64,000 bases of DNA from Levilactobacillus tangyuanensis (GTDB lineage Bacteria > Bacillota > Bacilli > Lactobacillales > Lactobacillaceae). The position numbers and the translations under genes were made by a program. The DNA lies in assembly GCF_003946545.1 (NCBI RefSeq), contig NZ_RHOA01000004.1, forward strand, positions 1 through 64,000, given 5' to 3'. Below are positions 53,844-62,021 of the stretch, in pieces (positions within the stretch are counted from its first letter, which is position 1; the number at the start of each line of letters is the position of its first letter). The notes under the pieces were generated by a model. That model saw only the letters and a program-made list of their open reading frames with translations, searched no databases and was not told where the DNA came from.

Positions 53844-54317
53844 TTGGCGAAGAAAAAGTCCAAGAAAACACCAGATAATGTTTTAGCCCAGAACCGTAAA
53901 GCGCGTCACGACTATGCAGTCTCCGATACCGTTGAGGCGGGACTAGTCTTAACCGGGACAGAAATCAAGTCGTTGCGTGAGCGACGGGTTAATCTTCAGG
54001 ACGGGTTCGCCCAGATTCGTAACAATGAAGCCTGGCTCATGAATGTTCATATCAGTGAATACGTTCAAGGGAATCGGTTTAACCATGATCCCCTGCGGAA
54101 TCGGAAACTGTTGTTACACAAGAAGGAGATTCGTCGTTTGGGACTGGCTACCCAAGATAAAGGGGTAACCTTAGTGCCATTGAAGATGTACCTGAAGCAT
54201 GGATTTGCTAAGGTCTTGATCGGCGTGGCAACTGGTAAACGTGAGTATGATAAGCGTGAAACCATCAAGCGACGTGAACAGGATCGGCAAATTGCTCGGG
54301 TTATGAAACGTTATTAA
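53844..54317 (+). CDS. smpB: SsrA-binding protein SmpB
   Basis: A 157-residue tmRNA-binding protein needed for ribosome rescue. Motifs [29 protein letters not shown] and KTLLHKKEI-like ([13 protein letters not shown]), with a basic C-terminal tail that enters the decoding site ([18 protein letters not shown]). TTG start at 53844 with GAGGTGAC. The partner RNase R is immediately upstream, but no tmRNA gene lies in this window. Confidence 0.96.
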
Positions 54318-54362: not shown

Positions 54363-54662
54363 GGTTGCTTAACGTTAGAAAAAGTTCATAGAGAAAAAAA
54401 CATGGAAGGCAAACTAACAATTTGAATGGCAGAGTCAAGAACGGACAATACAGCCGCGAAAATCGCGGTACGAGATTGTTTTTTTTTCGAAAAATATTTA
54501 ATTTCAAAAAATTTGAAATTTGAACAAATATGCCCATATAAGGTCTGACGTGCAACTTTTAGATGGCCTTTTTTAATTAACGATGTTATCATATGATTAA
54601 CAAAACAAAGCGATTTATGCGGCGGTCTGACTGCCTATTGGCAAAAATAAGAGGTGACTTTT
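54363..54662. other. 300-base AT-rich intergenic region with hairpins
   Basis: No gene is seen. It holds a terminator-like structure (CCGCGA/TCGCGG, 54454-54468, inside ACAAT/ATTGT, then nine T at 54479-54487), a perfect AT-rich inverted repeat AATTTCAAA/TTTGAAATT (54500-54520), a weak AAGG/CCTT hairpin with T-run (about 54540-54576) and the motif AACGATGTTATCATATGATTAAC (54579-54601) that recurs upstream of the next paralogue. Confidence 0.6.
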
Positions 54663-56459
54663 ATGAAATGGCAAGTAGCGTTAATGATGATGGGGGTTGG
54701 ATTTGGGACCACTCAAGTCATGACCATGACGAATCATCAGTCAATTATCGGGACAACTGTGGCGGCACACGCCGCAACCAAGTCGACGGCTATTGCCGAT
54801 GGTCGTTATGGAACCGTGGATTGGTATCTAACGGCGGACGGCGAACTCCATCTGGGGGCCGGGACGTTGGGCGACAATACGGCGAGTCTTGAAAACCAAC
54901 AAGGCCAATTGGCGACCTTGATTGCGCAAGCACAAGGGAATGCCACCCCAACGGCCAAGGAAAGCGAAACCGCGGGGCGGCAGGTAAAAAAGGTGGTTCT
55001 GGATGGCAAGGTGTCCACATCGGCTAATGCCTCATATCTCTTTGCCCAACTCCTGAACGTTAGTAGCTTTGAACACCTCGACCTGTTGGATACCAGCGCG
55101 GCAACGACCATGGCCGGGATGTTCAGTGCGTCGCTTGCAAATAGTTCCGGCGTGCCAGCGGACCAGCAGGGTAACTTTGACTTGACCTCCTTGGATGTGT
55201 CGCATTTTGATACCTCGAAGGTTACGGACATGTCATTCATGTTTTACATGTTGAAGCGAGTGACGAGTTACGACTTGTCGAGTTTTAACACGGATAATGT
55301 GACGCAGACCACGTCGATGTTTTTACAGAATTATCGTTTAACCAATTTGGACTTTTCCAAGGCAACTTTTGCGAGTCTCCAAAGTGCGAACTTTATGTTT
55401 GGCTCAACGACGATCCAGACGCTTAACTTTGCCTCATTCGCGCCACCAAAGACGTTTAGTCCATTTGCTTTGTTTGGCTATCAGAATGGTGACTTTCGGA
55501 AGGTGACCTTTGGACCGAAGACTTACTTCAAGAGTTCTCCAGGCCTGAACAATGCCGACCAGGATGACACCTACACGGGTAAGTGGCAAGCGGTTGGTGA
55601 CGGGACGGATACGAATCCGTTAGGCGCCAAATTCGATACCGGGTCGGCGCTCACGTCAATCTACGATGGCGTTAATAGTCCGTCTACCGTGGAATCTTAC
55701 GTTTGGGAACCGGTCAACCGGACGATTGCGCCGGTGACGCCACCCGTAACGCCGGCGCAAAAGGCCCAACCGGTAACGGTGCGTTACCTTGACGATAAAG
55801 GGAAGAATTTGGCCACCGATCAGGTTCTGACCGGTGAACTTGGTGAAAGTTACACGGCACCTAAGTTGGCCTTTGATGGTTACCGTCTGGTGAAGACCGA
55901 TGGTAACCCAAGCGGCGTCTTCGCAACTGATGCTCAAGCCGTGACCTTCCATTATGCACCGAAGTTGGTCAATGGTGGCGACGCTGCCACGGTTGCTCCA
56001 ATGGCAAGCGTGGTGTACAGCACCAAGAAGATTGGTCTGTACAGCAACAAGAACTTCTCCAAGAAGACTGTCAAGCATTGGTATACTAAACAAAAGCGGA
56101 CGAACCGTCCCATGTTTGTCGTGACTGGATTTGCCACCTCAAAGAATGGCAACTTGCGGTACAAGGTCAAGGACGTTAACCATGGTTCTAAGACGGCTGG
56201 CAAGACAGGCTACATGACGACTAAACAAACCCATGTGGTCAATGTGTATTACCAGGCTAAGCACAATAAGATTCAAGTGATCAACGCTAAGGGAATCAAC
56301 AGTTACAAACAGAAGACCCTGAAGACGAAACAGGTTCATTACAAGAAAGGGAAAATTTTAAAAGTAAAGAAGCTGGTTCGTCACAACAAGACCACGCGAT
56401 ACCAATTAACGAATGGCCAGTATATTACCGGCAACAAGAAGCTAATTATTGCCAAGTAG
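54663..56459 (+). CDS. secreted BspA-type / MucBP surface protein, paralogue 1
   Basis: A 598-residue protein. Signal peptide about 1-38, then a BspA-like leucine-rich (DUF285) region with repeats such as SLDVSHFDTSKVTDMSFMF (to about 340), a MucBP domain (about 366-432, QPVTVRYLDDKGKNL), and a Lys-rich C-terminal domain (about 440-598) ending NGQYITGNKKLIIAK, resembling the DUF5776 family found at the ends of lactobacillar surface proteins. No LPxTG motif is present, so attachment is probably non-covalent through the basic C-terminus. GAGGTGA precedes ATG 54663. First of three tandem paralogues; a mucus- or host-adhesion role is inference. Confidence 0.82.
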   Translation: MKWQVALMMMGVGFGTTQVMTMTNHQSIIGTTVAAHAATKSTAIADGRYGTVDWYLTADGELHLGAGTLGDNTASLENQQGQLATLIAQAQGNATPTAKESETAGRQVKKVVLDGKVSTSANASYLFAQLLNVSSFEHLDLLDTSAATTMAGMFSASLANSSGVPADQQGNFDLTSLDVSHFDTSKVTDMSFMFYMLKRVTSYDLSSFNTDNVTQTTSMFLQNYRLTNLDFSKATFASLQSANFMFGSTTIQTLNFASFAPPKTFSPFALFGYQNGDFRKVTFGPKTYFKSSPGLNNADQDDTYTGKWQAVGDGTDTNPLGAKFDTGSALTSIYDGVNSPSTVESYVWEPVNRTIAPVTPPVTPAQKAQPVTVRYLDDKGKNLATDQVLTGELGESYTAPKLAFDGYRLVKTDGNPSGVFATDAQAVTFHYAPKLVNGGDAATVAPMASVVYSTKKIGLYSNKNFSKKTVKHWYTKQKRTNRPMFVVTGFATSKNGNLRYKVKDVNHGSKTAGKTGYMTTKQTHVVNVYYQAKHNKIQVINAKGINSYKQKTLKTKQVHYKKGKILKVKKLVRHNKTTRYQLTNGQYITGNKKLIIAK

Positions 56460-56464
56460 GCCTG

Positions 56465-56491
56465 AAGGCAGCTCATTGAGCTGCCTTTTTT
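56465..56491 (+). terminator. terminator of surface paralogue 1
   Basis: AAGGCAGCTCA / TGAGCTGCCTT with almost no loop, six T. Confidence 0.88.
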
Positions 56492-56776
56492 GGTTACATT
56501 ACTGATAGTGTATATGGTTGGGCTTGTTTTCAAAGCTGACGAGGGGACCAATTTTCCTGTCTTAGGAATCCAGCAGCTGTGGGATTGTTGACCGTATTTA
56601 ATCGTGTCTCAACCAAATACAGGGACCGGAGTCACTTGAATTATCAGCTAATTTGACGAAGTGGGCAAAGATTTTGTGGCGCTATATAATTTAACGTGTT
56701 ATCATATAATCAACGAAATTAAAACGCTTCTAAATGATTTTGTTCAGACTAGGATGAACTTGAAGGAGGAACTCTC
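56492..56776. other. 285-base intergenic region with a motif shared with paralogue 1
   Basis: No gene is seen. AACGTGTTATCATATAATCAACG (56693-56715) closely matches the motif at 54579-54601 upstream of paralogue 1, about 61 bases before the start codon in both cases. TATATAAT (56683-56690) is a possible -10. Confidence 0.55.
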
Positions 56777-58579
56777 ATGAAATGGCAGACAACGATTTTG
56801 GTTGTGGGCTTAAGTCTCGGCGCGATGCAGCCAGTGACTAACGTGATCACCAGTGGGCAGACAGCGATGCCGGTGGCCCAAGCGGCAACCACGGCCGCAA
56901 AGGATGATATTCAGTATCAAGGCGACTATGGTGTTCATTGGTTTTTGACCAATTCGGGTGAATTGCACTTGGAAAGTGGCACACTGGCGGATAGTCCAAT
57001 ACCATCATCGACCAGCAAAAGTGGGGTAAATGAAGGCCAGTTTGCCAAACAGATTGCTTTGGCGCAGAACATTAGCGCGCCCACGGACGCCCAATTAACG
57101 GCTGCCGGCGATCTGGTCAAGAGGGTTGTTTTAGATGGCCCCGTTAAGACCAGTGCCAATGCTGCCAATCTGTTTGGCCAACTAAGCCAGGTCAGTGAAT
57201 ATGACCATTTAGACCTGTTGGACACCTCCGCTGCCACGACGATGCAGGGGATGTTCATGGCGATCAACAGCAAAGGAAACACGAGCTTAACCAGTCTGGA
57301 TGTCAGTCATTTCGACACTTCGCACGTCACCAATATGCGAAACATGTTTTATCAGTTGGTCAACGTCAGTGATCTAGACCTCAGTCATTTTAATATGGAT
57401 CAAGTGACCGACACTGGTTCGATGTTCTTGGGGACCAGGAAGATTGAGACCGTAGATTTATCGAGACAAGCCCTGCCGAGCCTAGTGACGGCTAATTATA
57501 TGTTTTCTGGCAGTAATATCCAGCAAGTTCTGTTGAATGCCTTCAATCCGGCACCAACGTTTACTGGCTCATCGATGTTTTTGGGAAAGAGCACGATTTG
57601 GCGAGTGACCTTTGGGCCTAAAACCCACTTCTCGGGCACGTCTTATCTGAATAATCCCAACACGGTTAACGCTCCGGACTTTTTGAAGTCATGGCAAGCT
57701 GTCGGCAAAGGGACTATTCAGAATCCATTGGGGGACCGTTATGCTTTGGGGAAAGATGTGACAGATCTTTATACGAAAGACAATCCTAACAAGCCGACCA
57801 AGGTTGAAACCTACGTTTGGGAACCAGTTAAGCGGGTCGTGGAACCCACGACGCCTTCCGTTGTAACTCCGACGCCACAGGCTCAACCCGTCACCGTTCA
57901 ATATTTGGACCAACAGGGTCATAAATTGGCGAATGATCAAACGCTGACCGGTAGCCTTGGGGCCAAGTACACGGCGGACCAACTTAAGTTTGATGGATAC
58001 AAGCTAGGGAAGACCGATGGTAGCACGAGTGGCACCTTCAGTACGTCGGCACAGACGGTGACCTTCCGCTATGTTCCCGACCTCAGTACGGGTGGGGATG
58101 CGGCGACGGTCGCGCCAATTTCCAGTGTTGTTTATAGTACCAAGAAGATTGGCCTTTACAGCAGCAAGGATTTCTCGAAGAAAACCTTGAAGCATTGGTA
58201 CGGCAAACAGAAGCGGACGAAACGCCCGATGTTTGTGGTGACCGGGTTTGCGACCGCTAAGAATGGTGCCTTGCGGTATAAGGTTAAGGATGTCAATCAT
58301 GGATCCAAGACCGCGGGTAAGACCGGCTATATCACGACCAAGAAAGCTTATGTGGTCAATGTGTACTATCAGGCCAAGCATAAGAAGATTCAGGTAATCA
58401 ATCCTAAGGGCATTAACAGTTATCAAAATAAATCACTGAAATCGAAGAAAGCTCACACCTATAAAAAAGGCCAGATTTTGAGAGTTAAGAAGATCGTGTC
58501 CTACCATTTAACCACTCGTTATCAATTAACGAACGGCAAGTATGTGACGGCCAACAAGAAATTAGTGATTGCTAAATAG
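56777..58579 (+). CDS. secreted BspA-type / MucBP surface protein, paralogue 2
   Basis: A 600-residue protein with the same plan as paralogue 1: signal peptide about 1-38, BspA-like region (SLDVSHFDTSHVTNMRNMFY), MucBP (about 367-433, QPVTVQYLDQQGHKL) and Lys-rich C-terminal domain (about 445-600). The C-terminal domain is nearly identical in stretches to paralogue 1 (KHWYGKQKRTKRPMFVVTG against KHWYTKQKRTNRPMFVVTG), while the N-terminal half has diverged, pointing to diversifying heads on a conserved anchor. AAGGAGG precedes the ATG. No LPxTG. Confidence 0.82.
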   Translation: MKWQTTILVVGLSLGAMQPVTNVITSGQTAMPVAQAATTAAKDDIQYQGDYGVHWFLTNSGELHLESGTLADSPIPSSTSKSGVNEGQFAKQIALAQNISAPTDAQLTAAGDLVKRVVLDGPVKTSANAANLFGQLSQVSEYDHLDLLDTSAATTMQGMFMAINSKGNTSLTSLDVSHFDTSHVTNMRNMFYQLVNVSDLDLSHFNMDQVTDTGSMFLGTRKIETVDLSRQALPSLVTANYMFSGSNIQQVLLNAFNPAPTFTGSSMFLGKSTIWRVTFGPKTHFSGTSYLNNPNTVNAPDFLKSWQAVGKGTIQNPLGDRYALGKDVTDLYTKDNPNKPTKVETYVWEPVKRVVEPTTPSVVTPTPQAQPVTVQYLDQQGHKLANDQTLTGSLGAKYTADQLKFDGYKLGKTDGSTSGTFSTSAQTVTFRYVPDLSTGGDAATVAPISSVVYSTKKIGLYSSKDFSKKTLKHWYGKQKRTKRPMFVVTGFATAKNGALRYKVKDVNHGSKTAGKTGYITTKKAYVVNVYYQAKHKKIQVINPKGINSYQNKSLKSKKAHTYKKGQILRVKKIVSYHLTTRYQLTNGKYVTANKKLVIAK

Positions 58580-58586
58580 ATCGGCC

Positions 58587-58621
58587 AAGGGGCCCCGGAG
58601 TTAATCCGAGGCCCCTTTTTT
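58587..58621 (+). terminator. terminator of surface paralogue 2
   Basis: AAGGGGCCCCGGA / TCCGAGGCCCCTT, 5-base loop, six T. Confidence 0.9.
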
Positions 58622-58753
58622 GCTGGCTAAACCCCGTTATAAAGGGATTTATAAGCCGTTTTTCTTGGTGCACATTGTTGGGTAGTGATATGGTTATTCA
58701 CGAAAATTGATAGATAAATATGGCCAAGATAATCAGGGAGAGGGGATCCACAC

Positions 58754-60577
58754 GTGAAGTGGCGCAGTCGAGGAGTATTATTGGTTGCCACGTTAAGCTT
58801 AGTGGCTATGGGGGTACTGGAAAAGCCAGTTGTGGCCGCTGGAGATGGTCAATTACGTTCTGAAGTCATTAAACCTACCCAGGGTCGATATGGTAGTGTG
58901 CCGTTTCACTTAACGTCGGCGGGTGTTTTACATTTAGGGGCCGGTACGTTGCCAGAATATAAGGACTTACATCTTCTGTCTGGTTTTTCTGGTCAACTGC
59001 TGGCGGCGGTTACCAAGGCCTATTTGCATCAGAACAATATCATGGGTGACGATATGGATAAAATATCTTCACGGATTACCAAAGTTGTTTTTGATGGACC
59101 GGTGGTGGCACCGGTGAACGCTAAAGAATTATTTGAAAATTTGAAGTCAGTGACCACGTATGAACATTTTGACCGATTGGATACCCACCAGACTGTAAAT
59201 ATGGCTCACATGTTGGCGGACAATTACCTTTTAACGAGTCTGGATCTTAGCCATTTTGATACGAGTCAGGTCACAACGACTAATAATCTGTTCATGTTCG
59301 CATCAAGTATGCCCAACATTGATGTCACTAATTTAGATTTGGACAAGGACACAGACATTCATGACATGTTTTGGGGAATGACAGCGCTACATGAATTGGA
59401 CTTGAGTCATCAGACCTTTCGCAACGTCAAGAATGCAAGTCTTATGATTTCTCACACTAGCATTCAGCGCGTTAATCTAGCTCACGCCGCACCTAAGGTG
59501 GTGAATGGGCTCAAACAGATCTTTGTTGCGGCGGATACTTTGGCAGAAGTTACCCTGGGTCCCCAGGCTCAGACAGGTCAAGAACTGGCCATTTCACCGG
59601 CCCCCAGGAACGACCAATTCACCGGGAATTGGCAGGCGGTTGGCACCGGTACGGTGAAGAATCCTTTGGGTAAGAAATACTCGGATAACCGACTAATCGG
59701 TAATGATCCGACTGCCGGGAGACAAGTTGAAACCTATGTCTGGGAACCCGTTAACCGGGAGATATCGGTTACCCCACCGGCAATCGTGCCGCCGACCGTT
59801 GTGCCACCAACCGTTGTACCGCCAACGGTAGAACCACCAAAACCGGGGCCGGAACCCATTGTGCCGCCGCAGCCGGGGCCGACGAGCCAACCAGTCACGC
59901 TCCAGTATTTGGATGAAGCGGACCAGCCCTTGGCTAATGAGCGTCAAATGCGTGGGAAAATAGGCGAGACTTACCGAGCAATCCCACTAGAATTTACGGG
60001 CTATCGCTTAAGACGAGTGACCGGCCGGACGGTTGGAACGTTCGGGGTGGCGCCACAGATGGTGACCTTCCGCTATGCTCAGGATACGCATGCGGGTGGC
60101 TCCGGGAATACGATTGCCCCATTAAAGAGTGTCGTCTATGCCAAGCGGCGAGTGGGCTTGTATGCGACGCCGAACTTCAATCGACACCAAGTGAAACACT
60201 GGTATGGTCGCCAGGCACGAACCCGACGTCCCATGTTTGTGGTGACAGGATTGGCCCGCTCTAGGTCAGGCCTTCTGCGTTACCGGGTCCGCGATGTGAA
60301 TCATCACTCGAAAACCGCGGGGATGACCGGCTATCTAACGGCCCGCCCGGCCTGGGTGACGAGTGTTTATTATCAGCACAAGTTGGCCAAGGTTCGGGTC
60401 CTGAATCCGCAAGGGGTTAACGTTTATCATAACCGCTCACTGCGGGGAAAGACGACCCATATTCGCCAGGGACACTATCTTAGAATTAGAAAAATTGTGG
60501 CGTATCATCGCGCTAGGCGGTTCGAAATACAGCGGGGCGGGTATGTTACGGCGAATAAGAAACTGGTCATTTGGTGA
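58754..60577 (+). CDS. secreted BspA-type / MucBP surface protein, paralogue 3
   Basis: A 607-residue protein, the most diverged of the three. Signal peptide about 1-30, BspA-like region with SLDLSHFDTSQVTTTNNLF, a Pro-rich linker of PPTVVPP/PPTVEPP repeats (about 340-375) absent from the other two, MucBP (about 377-445) and a C-terminal domain in which many lysines are arginines (KHWYGRQARTRRP). Start GTG 58754 with GGGAGAGGGG. The common upstream motif of the other two is not clearly present. It ends NKKLVIW. Function unknown; likely cell-surface binding. Confidence 0.8.
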   Translation: MKWRSRGVLLVATLSLVAMGVLEKPVVAAGDGQLRSEVIKPTQGRYGSVPFHLTSAGVLHLGAGTLPEYKDLHLLSGFSGQLLAAVTKAYLHQNNIMGDDMDKISSRITKVVFDGPVVAPVNAKELFENLKSVTTYEHFDRLDTHQTVNMAHMLADNYLLTSLDLSHFDTSQVTTTNNLFMFASSMPNIDVTNLDLDKDTDIHDMFWGMTALHELDLSHQTFRNVKNASLMISHTSIQRVNLAHAAPKVVNGLKQIFVAADTLAEVTLGPQAQTGQELAISPAPRNDQFTGNWQAVGTGTVKNPLGKKYSDNRLIGNDPTAGRQVETYVWEPVNREISVTPPAIVPPTVVPPTVVPPTVEPPKPGPEPIVPPQPGPTSQPVTLQYLDEADQPLANERQMRGKIGETYRAIPLEFTGYRLRRVTGRTVGTFGVAPQMVTFRYAQDTHAGGSGNTIAPLKSVVYAKRRVGLYATPNFNRHQVKHWYGRQARTRRPMFVVTGLARSRSGLLRYRVRDVNHHSKTAGMTGYLTARPAWVTSVYYQHKLAKVRVLNPQGVNVYHNRSLRGKTTHIRQGHYLRIRKIVAYHRARRFEIQRGGYVTANKKLVIW

Positions 60578-61301: not shown

Positions 61302-62021
61302 ATGAAACCGTTTATTCATAATGATTGGTGGCCGGTTCTTGAACCGGAATTTGAGCAAACTTACTATCAACAATTGCGTGAATTTTTAGTCGAAGAGTAT
61401 CAAAGCCATGAAATTTATCCAGACATGTATCACATTTTCACGGCGTTTGACTGGACCCCGTTTAGTCAGGTCAAGGTGGTCATCTTGGGGCAAGATCCGT
61501 ATCACAATCCGGGTCAAGCCCATGGCTGTAGCTTCTCGGTTTTACCGGGAACCAAGATCCCGCCATCGTTAGTCAACATTTATAAAGAGTTGAATAGCGA
61601 CTTAGGCATCAAGCCGGTTGACCATGGTTATCTAGAAAAGTGGGCCAAGCAGGGGGTTCTCTTATTGAATTCCGTCTTGACGGTTCGCTACGGGGAAGCC
61701 TTTTCCCACAAGGGCCACGGTTGGGAACGACTGACGGATGCCGCGATTGCTAAGCTCTCGGAGCGACCTGAACCAGTGGTCTTCATCCTATGGGGGAATG
61801 CGGCTAGGTCGAAGATTAAGCTGATTGATACCAAGACCAACATTGTCTTGCAATCGGCCCATCCGAGTCCGCTTTCTGCCAACCGAGGCTTCTTTGGGTC
61901 TAAACCATTTTCCAAAACCAACATCGCCTTAAAATCGTTAGGAGAGACCCCGATCGACTGGCAATTGCCAGAGCATGTTTCAATCGATGAGGGCTCGGCT
62001 AAACAGTCTCACGACGCATAG
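61302..62021 (+). CDS. ung: uracil-DNA glycosylase
   Basis: A 239-residue family-1 UDG that removes uracil from DNA. The water-activating motif [13 protein letters not shown] and the intercalation loop [13 protein letters not shown] are intact. Start ATG 61302 with TGAGGTG; upstream codons in frame are not family-like. ung-pta-tsaE is a conserved lactobacillar order. The C-terminal ~15 residues are variable. Confidence 0.96.

Follow-up and report, generated by a model that had tools for sequence, protein, structure and literature searches.

The interval between smpB and ung in Levilactobacillus tangyuanensis raises the question of how a lactobacillus might express, anchor and vary a set of related surface proteins. 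In a 64-kb window of this genome (64,000 nt, the whole stretch of DNA that was analysed), three tandem paralogous genes, hereafter T1, T2 and T3, are placed between smpB and ung. A first-pass annotation made from the letters alone had taken them for a co-regulated adhesin family, attached perhaps by charge, with heads diversifying on a fixed anchor. The architecture of the proteins, their site, copy number and charge, the enrichment of a promoter pattern and the mosaic heads of one species group were computed in the present analysis. The reading that is favoured here, and held with reasonable confidence, is that of a tandem gene family whose surface proteins are secreted and bind the wall non-covalently, and whose genes have their own promoters, with turnover of copies and replacement of head blocks. 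Its members are probably wall-bound and probably adhesive.

All three reading frames are complete from start to stop; the start of T1 is taken as the ATG at 54663, while the mechanical list of open reading frames (ORFs) gives a GTG at 54654. Overall identity to T1 is 59% for T2 and 40% for T3. The description of three paralogues of about 600 residues, with a BspA-like head, a MucBP domain and a conserved basic C-terminal domain, agrees with the profile searches. Each of the three proteins exceeds the Pfam cut-offs for DUF285 in the head (38.9-50.7 bits vs. 25), MucBP (PF06458; 49.5-69 bits vs. a gathering cut-off of 23) and, at the C-terminus, DUF5776 (PF19087; 54.8-72.2 bits vs. 27), and the heads also pass the cut-off for TIGR02167 (34.1-45.9 bits vs. 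30). The reported lack of LPxTG holds as well: no such motif is found in the last 60 amino acids (aa) of any of 38 family members, the trio included. A full AlphaFold model of T2 has a mean predicted local distance difference test (pLDDT) score of 83.6.

The setting of the trio was examined across the genus, with one genome per species. Both smpB and ung were detected in 35 of 35 genus genomes. The site survey comprised 34 stretches, i.e., the window and 33 of the 34 other genomes; G009, with smpB and ung on different contigs, was left out, and for G021, where the two genes are likewise separated, the reading started from ung alone. When a copy is counted if it is longer than 500 aa and covers at least 90% of a window protein, the interval contains none, one, two or three copies in 12, 12, 4 and 6 stretches, respectively, giving a total of 38. 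In the nearest genome, G022, the counterparts of T1 and T3 are 86% and 70% identical, and no counterpart of T2 is present at the site. Named full-length homologues belong to Levilactobacillus species. Among 201 genomes sampled from the taxonomic family, with no more than six candidates scored per genome, a match at E<=1e-60 was found in 18 (8 of this genus, 10 of other genera); the listed matches in other genera all start at profile position 146 or later, and the near-full-length ones are all from Levilactobacillus. On the evidence of sequence, the trio is an old tandem family kept at a plastic smpB-ung site of Levilactobacillus. No literature on an smpB-ung surface-protein family was found among the matches listed, subscription papers lying outside the search.

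How might such proteins be held at the cell? The tail has an isoelectric point (pI) of 10.2-11.9 and a net charge of +27 to +41 in all 38 copies, and the head a pI of 4.2-6.2 and a net charge of -22 to -4, again in 38 of 38. The residues that provide the charge differ, since the last 160 aa contain 10 lysines and 23 arginines in T3 vs. 31-32 lysines and 5 arginines in T1 and T2, with the net charge nearly unchanged. The tail is predicted to consist of two SH3b-like modules. The best VIA matches of the tail model are to the SH3b domain of the capsule polymerase Bcs3 (8a0m, Z 10.3, root-mean-square deviation (rmsd) 1.9 over 67 residues), and each half of the tail pairs with it: residues 95-164 with 8a0m, at the Z just given, and residues 1-93 with 8a0c (Z 9.4). 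Further matches are to staphylococcal autolysin repeats (8.6), lysostaphin (7.4), ALE-1 (7.2) and the teichoic-acid-binding domains of SlpA (7.4 and 6.9). By title, the first 20 rows are mostly peptidoglycan hydrolases or related bacterial SH3-like domains. In the genome of L. tangyuanensis itself, DUF5776 is also found on a GH25 protein and an NlpC/P60 protein, two of eight proteins scanned from a listing of 24 domain matches (loci on contigs C6 and C12 were left out).

Published work on these folds is in keeping with a charged grip on a polymer. The Bcs3 SH3b domain is described as gripping a dimer of ribose-ribitol-phosphate within a groove lined by positive and neutral patches (PMC10299916); DUF5776 is not named in the main text of that paper. 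The ribose-ribitol-phosphate polymer should be chemically close to teichoic acid. DUF5776 is described as SH3-related, with binding unproven, in the accessible part of one paper (PMC12208459); another relates it to SH3/SH3b, proposes wall attachment by positive charge and finds the proteins also in the supernatant (PMC12863079). A single binding report, for the DUF5776 domain of the SPP1 endolysin, is cited in the part seen of a third, which says that no other exists (PMC11674121). Non-covalent anchoring to an anionic wall polymer, and with it the earlier suggestion of attachment by charge, is thus well supported by inference from pI, net charge, the predicted SH3b-like fold and the DUF5776 papers.

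The next question is whether the genes share a control element. The first-pass annotation had noted one motif at equal distance before two of the starts and had suggested that the genes are co-regulated. Indeed, exact copies of TGTTATCATATRATYAAC are present at 54584 and at 56697, which puts them 79 nt ahead of the T1 start and 80 nt ahead of the T2 start, both ATG; shuffled windows average 0.10 sites when up to three mismatches are allowed. T3 is not bare, however; it carries a degenerate core at -69. The DNA upstream of T1 and that upstream of T2 align best over a block of 54 nt that surrounds the motif (score 22 vs. a shuffle maximum of 16), and the DNA upstream of T3 aligns with neither above shuffles. 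The core of the element, TG-T-TATCAT, resembles an extended -10, and the pattern TG-N-TATNNT lies upstream of all three genes. At 15-125 nt upstream, [AG]TGNTATNNT is found in 26 of the 38 copies, T3 included (shuffles: mean 1.0, maximum 4), as against 3 of the 52 other genes in the window (rough gene calls), an enrichment that is partly circular because the patterns were chosen after the upstreams had been seen. The distance from the extended -10 core to the start is 65-100 nt across family copies.

The genome scan that the annotation had proposed did not place the motif before unlinked genes. In the 2.19-Mb genome there are five TGTTATCATATRATYAAC sites at up to three mismatches; the three beyond T1 and T2 all have three mismatches, and the reversed-pattern control also gives three sites. 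In the whole genome, no site with 0-2 mismatches precedes another, unlinked gene. The motif as a genome-wide regulon element was therefore dropped, the genome having only the two sites at 0-2 mismatches. Across the 35 genomes, TGTTATCATRTGATT has six exact matches, all six before family copies at the site (G000, G005, G011, G020, G022 and G028), and seven one-mismatch matches, of which one is at the site (G010) and six are elsewhere. At up to one mismatch this makes 13 matches vs. 11 for the reversed control and, because the 15-base pattern was written after the upstreams had been seen, only the absence of the exact form elsewhere is new information; the scan also misses the element of T2 itself, which has two mismatches. 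Confinement to the locus, together with the variable spacing between core and start, points to promoter conservation rather than a demonstrated regulon. The shared motif is thus probably a conserved promoter core, and co-regulation, for which the motif spoke, is weakened as a claim. The hairpin listed after T1 (Table 1) suggests that T1 and T2 are separate transcription units, on a scan whose 10 terminator-like sites are barely above shuffles (mean 7.8, sd 3.4).

Other upstream patterns recur in the family. A cre-like sequence, AA[AG]CG[AC]TT, is upstream of 10 of the 38 copies (shuffle mean 0.3, maximum 3), a fuller cre pattern fits one of the 38 upstreams, and TTGACTAGG is found in seven (shuffle mean 0.0, maximum 1); both the cre-like and the TTGACTAGG pattern were chosen after seeing the sequences, whose rows are related, and no conclusion is built on either. 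In several copies ACTAGG, often as TTGACTAGG, sits some 28-32 nt ahead of the start (e.g., 56745-56753), and in others 84-100 nt ahead; it is within 15-125 nt upstream in 12 of 38 copies and is possibly an element of the 5' untranslated region. Control by cre has been described for other lactobacillar surface gene clusters (PMC1534035), a paper whose accessible part does not have the trio family as its subject.

Whether heads change faster than tails was examined in 22 hand-chosen, position-matched pairs. The rate of nonsynonymous change (dN) is higher in the head in 20 of the 22, the exceptions being copy 2 of G010/G020 and the lanxiensis/mulengensis pair, and its ratio to the synonymous rate (dN/dS) is well under 1 in all pairs with finite dS. 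Copy 3 of lindianensis, humaensis and paucivorans has mosaic heads: pairwise DNA identity is 92-95% over residues 1-60, 60-94% over residues 61-195, 61-82% over residues 200-345 and 86-94% beyond, with edges specific to each pair. In humaensis/paucivorans it is 94% over residues 61-195, 62% over 200-345 and then 91-94%, and in humaensis/lindianensis dS is 2.12 in the head vs. 0.46 in the tail. These drops are best read as recombinational replacement of head blocks, judging from the aligned DNA. No donor of the replaced blocks was found among the 38 copies, the next-best matches being below 50%. In the tail tree, copies cluster by species group (support 82/94 and 82/98, not strong), and T1 and T2 are united with T1 of G022 (82/98). 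For the head tree, monophyly of the 11-copy lindianensis group is rejected by the approximately unbiased (AU) test (p 0.019), a moderate result for a group picked after the tree had been seen, and the grouping of T1, T2 and G022 T1 is not rejected (AU p 0.197). The claim that heads diversify on a fixed anchor thus stands genus-wide, in the 20 of 22 pairs and in the mosaic heads, and hardly in the window genes when compared with G022; heads evolving no faster than tails, which the annotation had named as the outcome that would count against it, is nearly what is seen in the window genes and fails across the genus.

Several points weigh against the favoured reading. The extended -10 pattern is missing from 12 of 38 copies, and both upstream patterns were picked post hoc among related rows, so that the contrast is overstated. 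The consensus promoter scan, which also demands a -35, did not list the element sites, and its promoter-like sites number nine vs. 7.6 on average in shuffles. The tail also matches eukaryotic SH3 and Tudor domains, at VIA Z 5.6-6.8, and a Z below about 8 can reflect merely a common arrangement; Foldseek with the tail gives no matches at E<=0.001, the best E being 1.5e-3. The window genes are nearly without head excess against G022 (T1 head 86%, tail 88%; T3 74% and 75%), the AU result in favour of swapped heads is, as noted, a moderate one, and the tails of T1 and T2 are synonymously saturated (proportion of synonymous differences, pS, 0.78).

It is in this light that the alternatives must be considered. 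The motif might instead be an operator at which one dedicated regulator controls the genes together, with the near-palindromic core GTTATCATATGATTAAC overlapping the -10. The identity of the T1 and T2 elements reaches past the TG-TAT core (AACG upstream, ATYAAC downstream), their upstreams have otherwise diverged, and the exact 15-base form is confined to the smpB-ung locus in the genus. However, the genome has no further site at 0-2 mismatches, many family copies retain the TG-N-TAT core only, and the spacing to the start varies, and an operator is therefore unlikely. Another possibility is that the likeness of T1 and T2 in motif and tail simply reflects a recent duplication. Their tails are 80% identical and, with T1 of G022, are joined in the tail tree; yet both head and tail have reached saturation at synonymous sites (pS 0.77-0.78), and upstream the best alignment does not extend beyond the 54-nt block, which makes this explanation highly improbable. 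Recent gene conversion of the T1 and T2 tails was tried as a candidate and is unsupported; all paralogue pairs in the window are at or near synonymous saturation, so recent conversion is not indicated there.

Head divergence could also be due to weaker purifying selection alone, with no recombination. The head excess of dN, with dN/dS well below 1 where dS is finite, and the small, smooth difference between head and tail in the window pairs are what such relaxation would give. The copy 3 drops in humaensis, paucivorans and lindianensis are nevertheless block-like, include synonymous change and have edges that differ by pair, and we regard relaxed selection as the whole explanation as rather doubtful. 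Finally, the proteins might be wall-bound parts of another function, such as carbohydrate capture or a phage-exposed decoy, rather than adhesins. The names of the MucBP and leucine-rich-repeat (LRR)-type domains do come from annotation. Against this, the best Foldseek match of the full model, a partial one, is to the surface protein YwfG, deposited with mannose and mannobiose bound, which fits glycan-binding adhesion equally with carbohydrate capture; this alternative deserves some weight, even if an adhesive role is the more probable one.

The trio family is made of known kinds of domain. Its heads resemble BspA-like/PARCEL proteins in matching DUF285 and TIGR02167. According to the part seen of PMC2996958, Lactobacillus is one of the groups that have the 25-residue PARCEL repeats, and repeats of non-canonical length are prevalent there. 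In the trio, by contrast, the matching tract is short and lies within a larger head, and the tail is basic and of the wall type; the mycoplasma proteins treated in the same part of that paper are lipoproteins instead. An ungapped repeat search found no PARCEL-type tandem 75-bp array in the trio; it gave nine direct families of 2-3 copies each, nearly all with one copy per gene. The C-terminal family is common to the trio and to the DUF5776 proteins described in the accessible parts of PMC12208459, PMC12863079, PMC11674121 and PMC10468668 (Enterococcus AtlE, Apilactobacillus giant proteins and phage endolysins), but in the trio the domain comes after a BspA-like head and MucBP in tandem paralogues of about 600 aa. 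The Haemophilus Bcs3 SH3b domain (8a0m, 8a0c) is the closest structural match of the tail model; it differs in being a module of an intracellular enzyme that tethers the growing capsule polymer, and in identity (16-22%).

Lactobacillus SlpA and the GW domains of Listeria InlB attach to the wall non-covalently. Their folds are SH3-like, as the tail is predicted to be (VIA Z 7.4 for 7qeh, 6.9 for 8alu and 6.2 for 1m9s, the last with rmsd 13.6), but identity is 15-17% and no SLAP S-layer or GW family is listed among Pfam matches of the trio at E<=1, a search in which HMMER filters drop most matches above 0.1. The Lactococcus protein YwfG (7yl4-7yl6) comes first when the whole model is searched with Foldseek (E 9.2e-7); the TM-score is 0.12, so the match is partial, and a sequence-profile match to YwfG covers the MucBP part. 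It is named as a Gram-positive-anchoring-domain protein, in contrast to the trio, which lacks LPxTG. The best sequence match for the MucBP part is the MucBP domain of Listeria lmo0835 (2kvz, whose title in the profile search names another molecule).

Table 1. Features of the smpB-ung interval in the window and, with L-prefixed positions, in other genomes
Feature	Position	Strand	Remark
smpB	53844..54317	+	left boundary of site
Shared element before T1	54579..54601	+	holds extended -10-like TGTTATCAT (54584-54592)
T1	54663..56459	+	598 aa; signal region, DUF285 head, MucBP, basic DUF5776-type tail
T1 basic C-terminal tail	55965..56456	+	profile and charge analysis
Terminator-like hairpin after T1	56464..56488	+	sequence scan
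Shared element before T2	56693..56714	+	holds TGTTATCAT (56697-56705)
T2	56777..58579	+	600 aa; architecture as T1
T2 basic C-terminal tail	58085..58576	+	modelled alone: two SH3b-like modules predicted, pLDDT 86.5
Degenerate extended -10-like GTGATATGGT before T3	58685..58694	+	at -69
T3	58754..60577	+	607 aa; GTG start, Pro-rich linker, arginine-rich tail
T3 basic C-terminal tail	60083..60574	+	Arg-rich
Conserved convergent ORF, ~188 aa	60614..61180	-	ung side of array, present in 34/34 stretches
ung	61302..62021	+	right boundary of site
EF-G-binding protein gene	L072:2764-3438		similar ORFs in L160, L162
ABC transporter ATPase gene	L061:4901-5641		similar ORFs in L141-L151
ISL3-family transposase gene	L140:4171-5070		inside smpB-ung interval of G032

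The convergent ORF on the ung side matches no Pfam family at E<=0.1. Genes for an ABC-transporter ATPase, an EF-G-binding protein and an ISL3 transposase are also found within the interval in some genomes. In humaensis, huananensis and lindianensis, the gene for the EF-G-binding protein (EF-G-binding_N and FBP_C) separates smpB from the array, and the ATPase gene is at the smpB side in other genomes, including four that have no surface gene (G014, G002, G007 and G004). Elsewhere in the L. tangyuanensis genome, a fourth DUF285-MucBP-DUF5776 gene is situated on contig C1 (L172:1863-3536), away from the trio, and two MucBP-DUF5776 genes are in tandem on contig C10 (L170:252-4275).

According to the reading favoured here, every trio gene would be transcribed from its own extended -10 promoter, with the shared motif acting as a conserved promoter core and not as a regulon operator, and the protein would be exported. 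Largely through positive charge, the two C-terminal SH3b-like modules of the DUF5776 type would then hold a wall polymer that is anionic and probably a polyol-phosphate, as teichoic acid is, leaving MucBP and the BspA-like head to extend from the wall and do the binding. On the time scale of species, copies (0-3) would be gained and lost, and head blocks would now and then be replaced by recombination between the conserved N-terminus and the tail. It is tempting to speculate, though only tentatively, that smpB-ung is a dedicated diversification site. Homologous recombination would there exchange LRR-type head blocks again and again, between a conserved signal/N-terminal block on one side and, on the other, a conserved tail that grips a teichoic-acid-like polymer by charge. 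This would yield an antigen-variation-like surface repertoire in lactobacilli, which are non-pathogenic, perhaps driven by the recognition of phages or partners.

Binding by DUF5776 domains has hardly been tested so far, to judge from the parts seen of PMC12208459 and PMC11674121. The family amounts to a natural experiment: at one site with 0-3 copies, the charge of the tail stays fixed while its sequence changes, and the heads change. It could show whether it is the charge of the tail, and not its sequence, on which wall anchoring depends, and whether block replacement is a way in which lactobacilli vary their surface heads.

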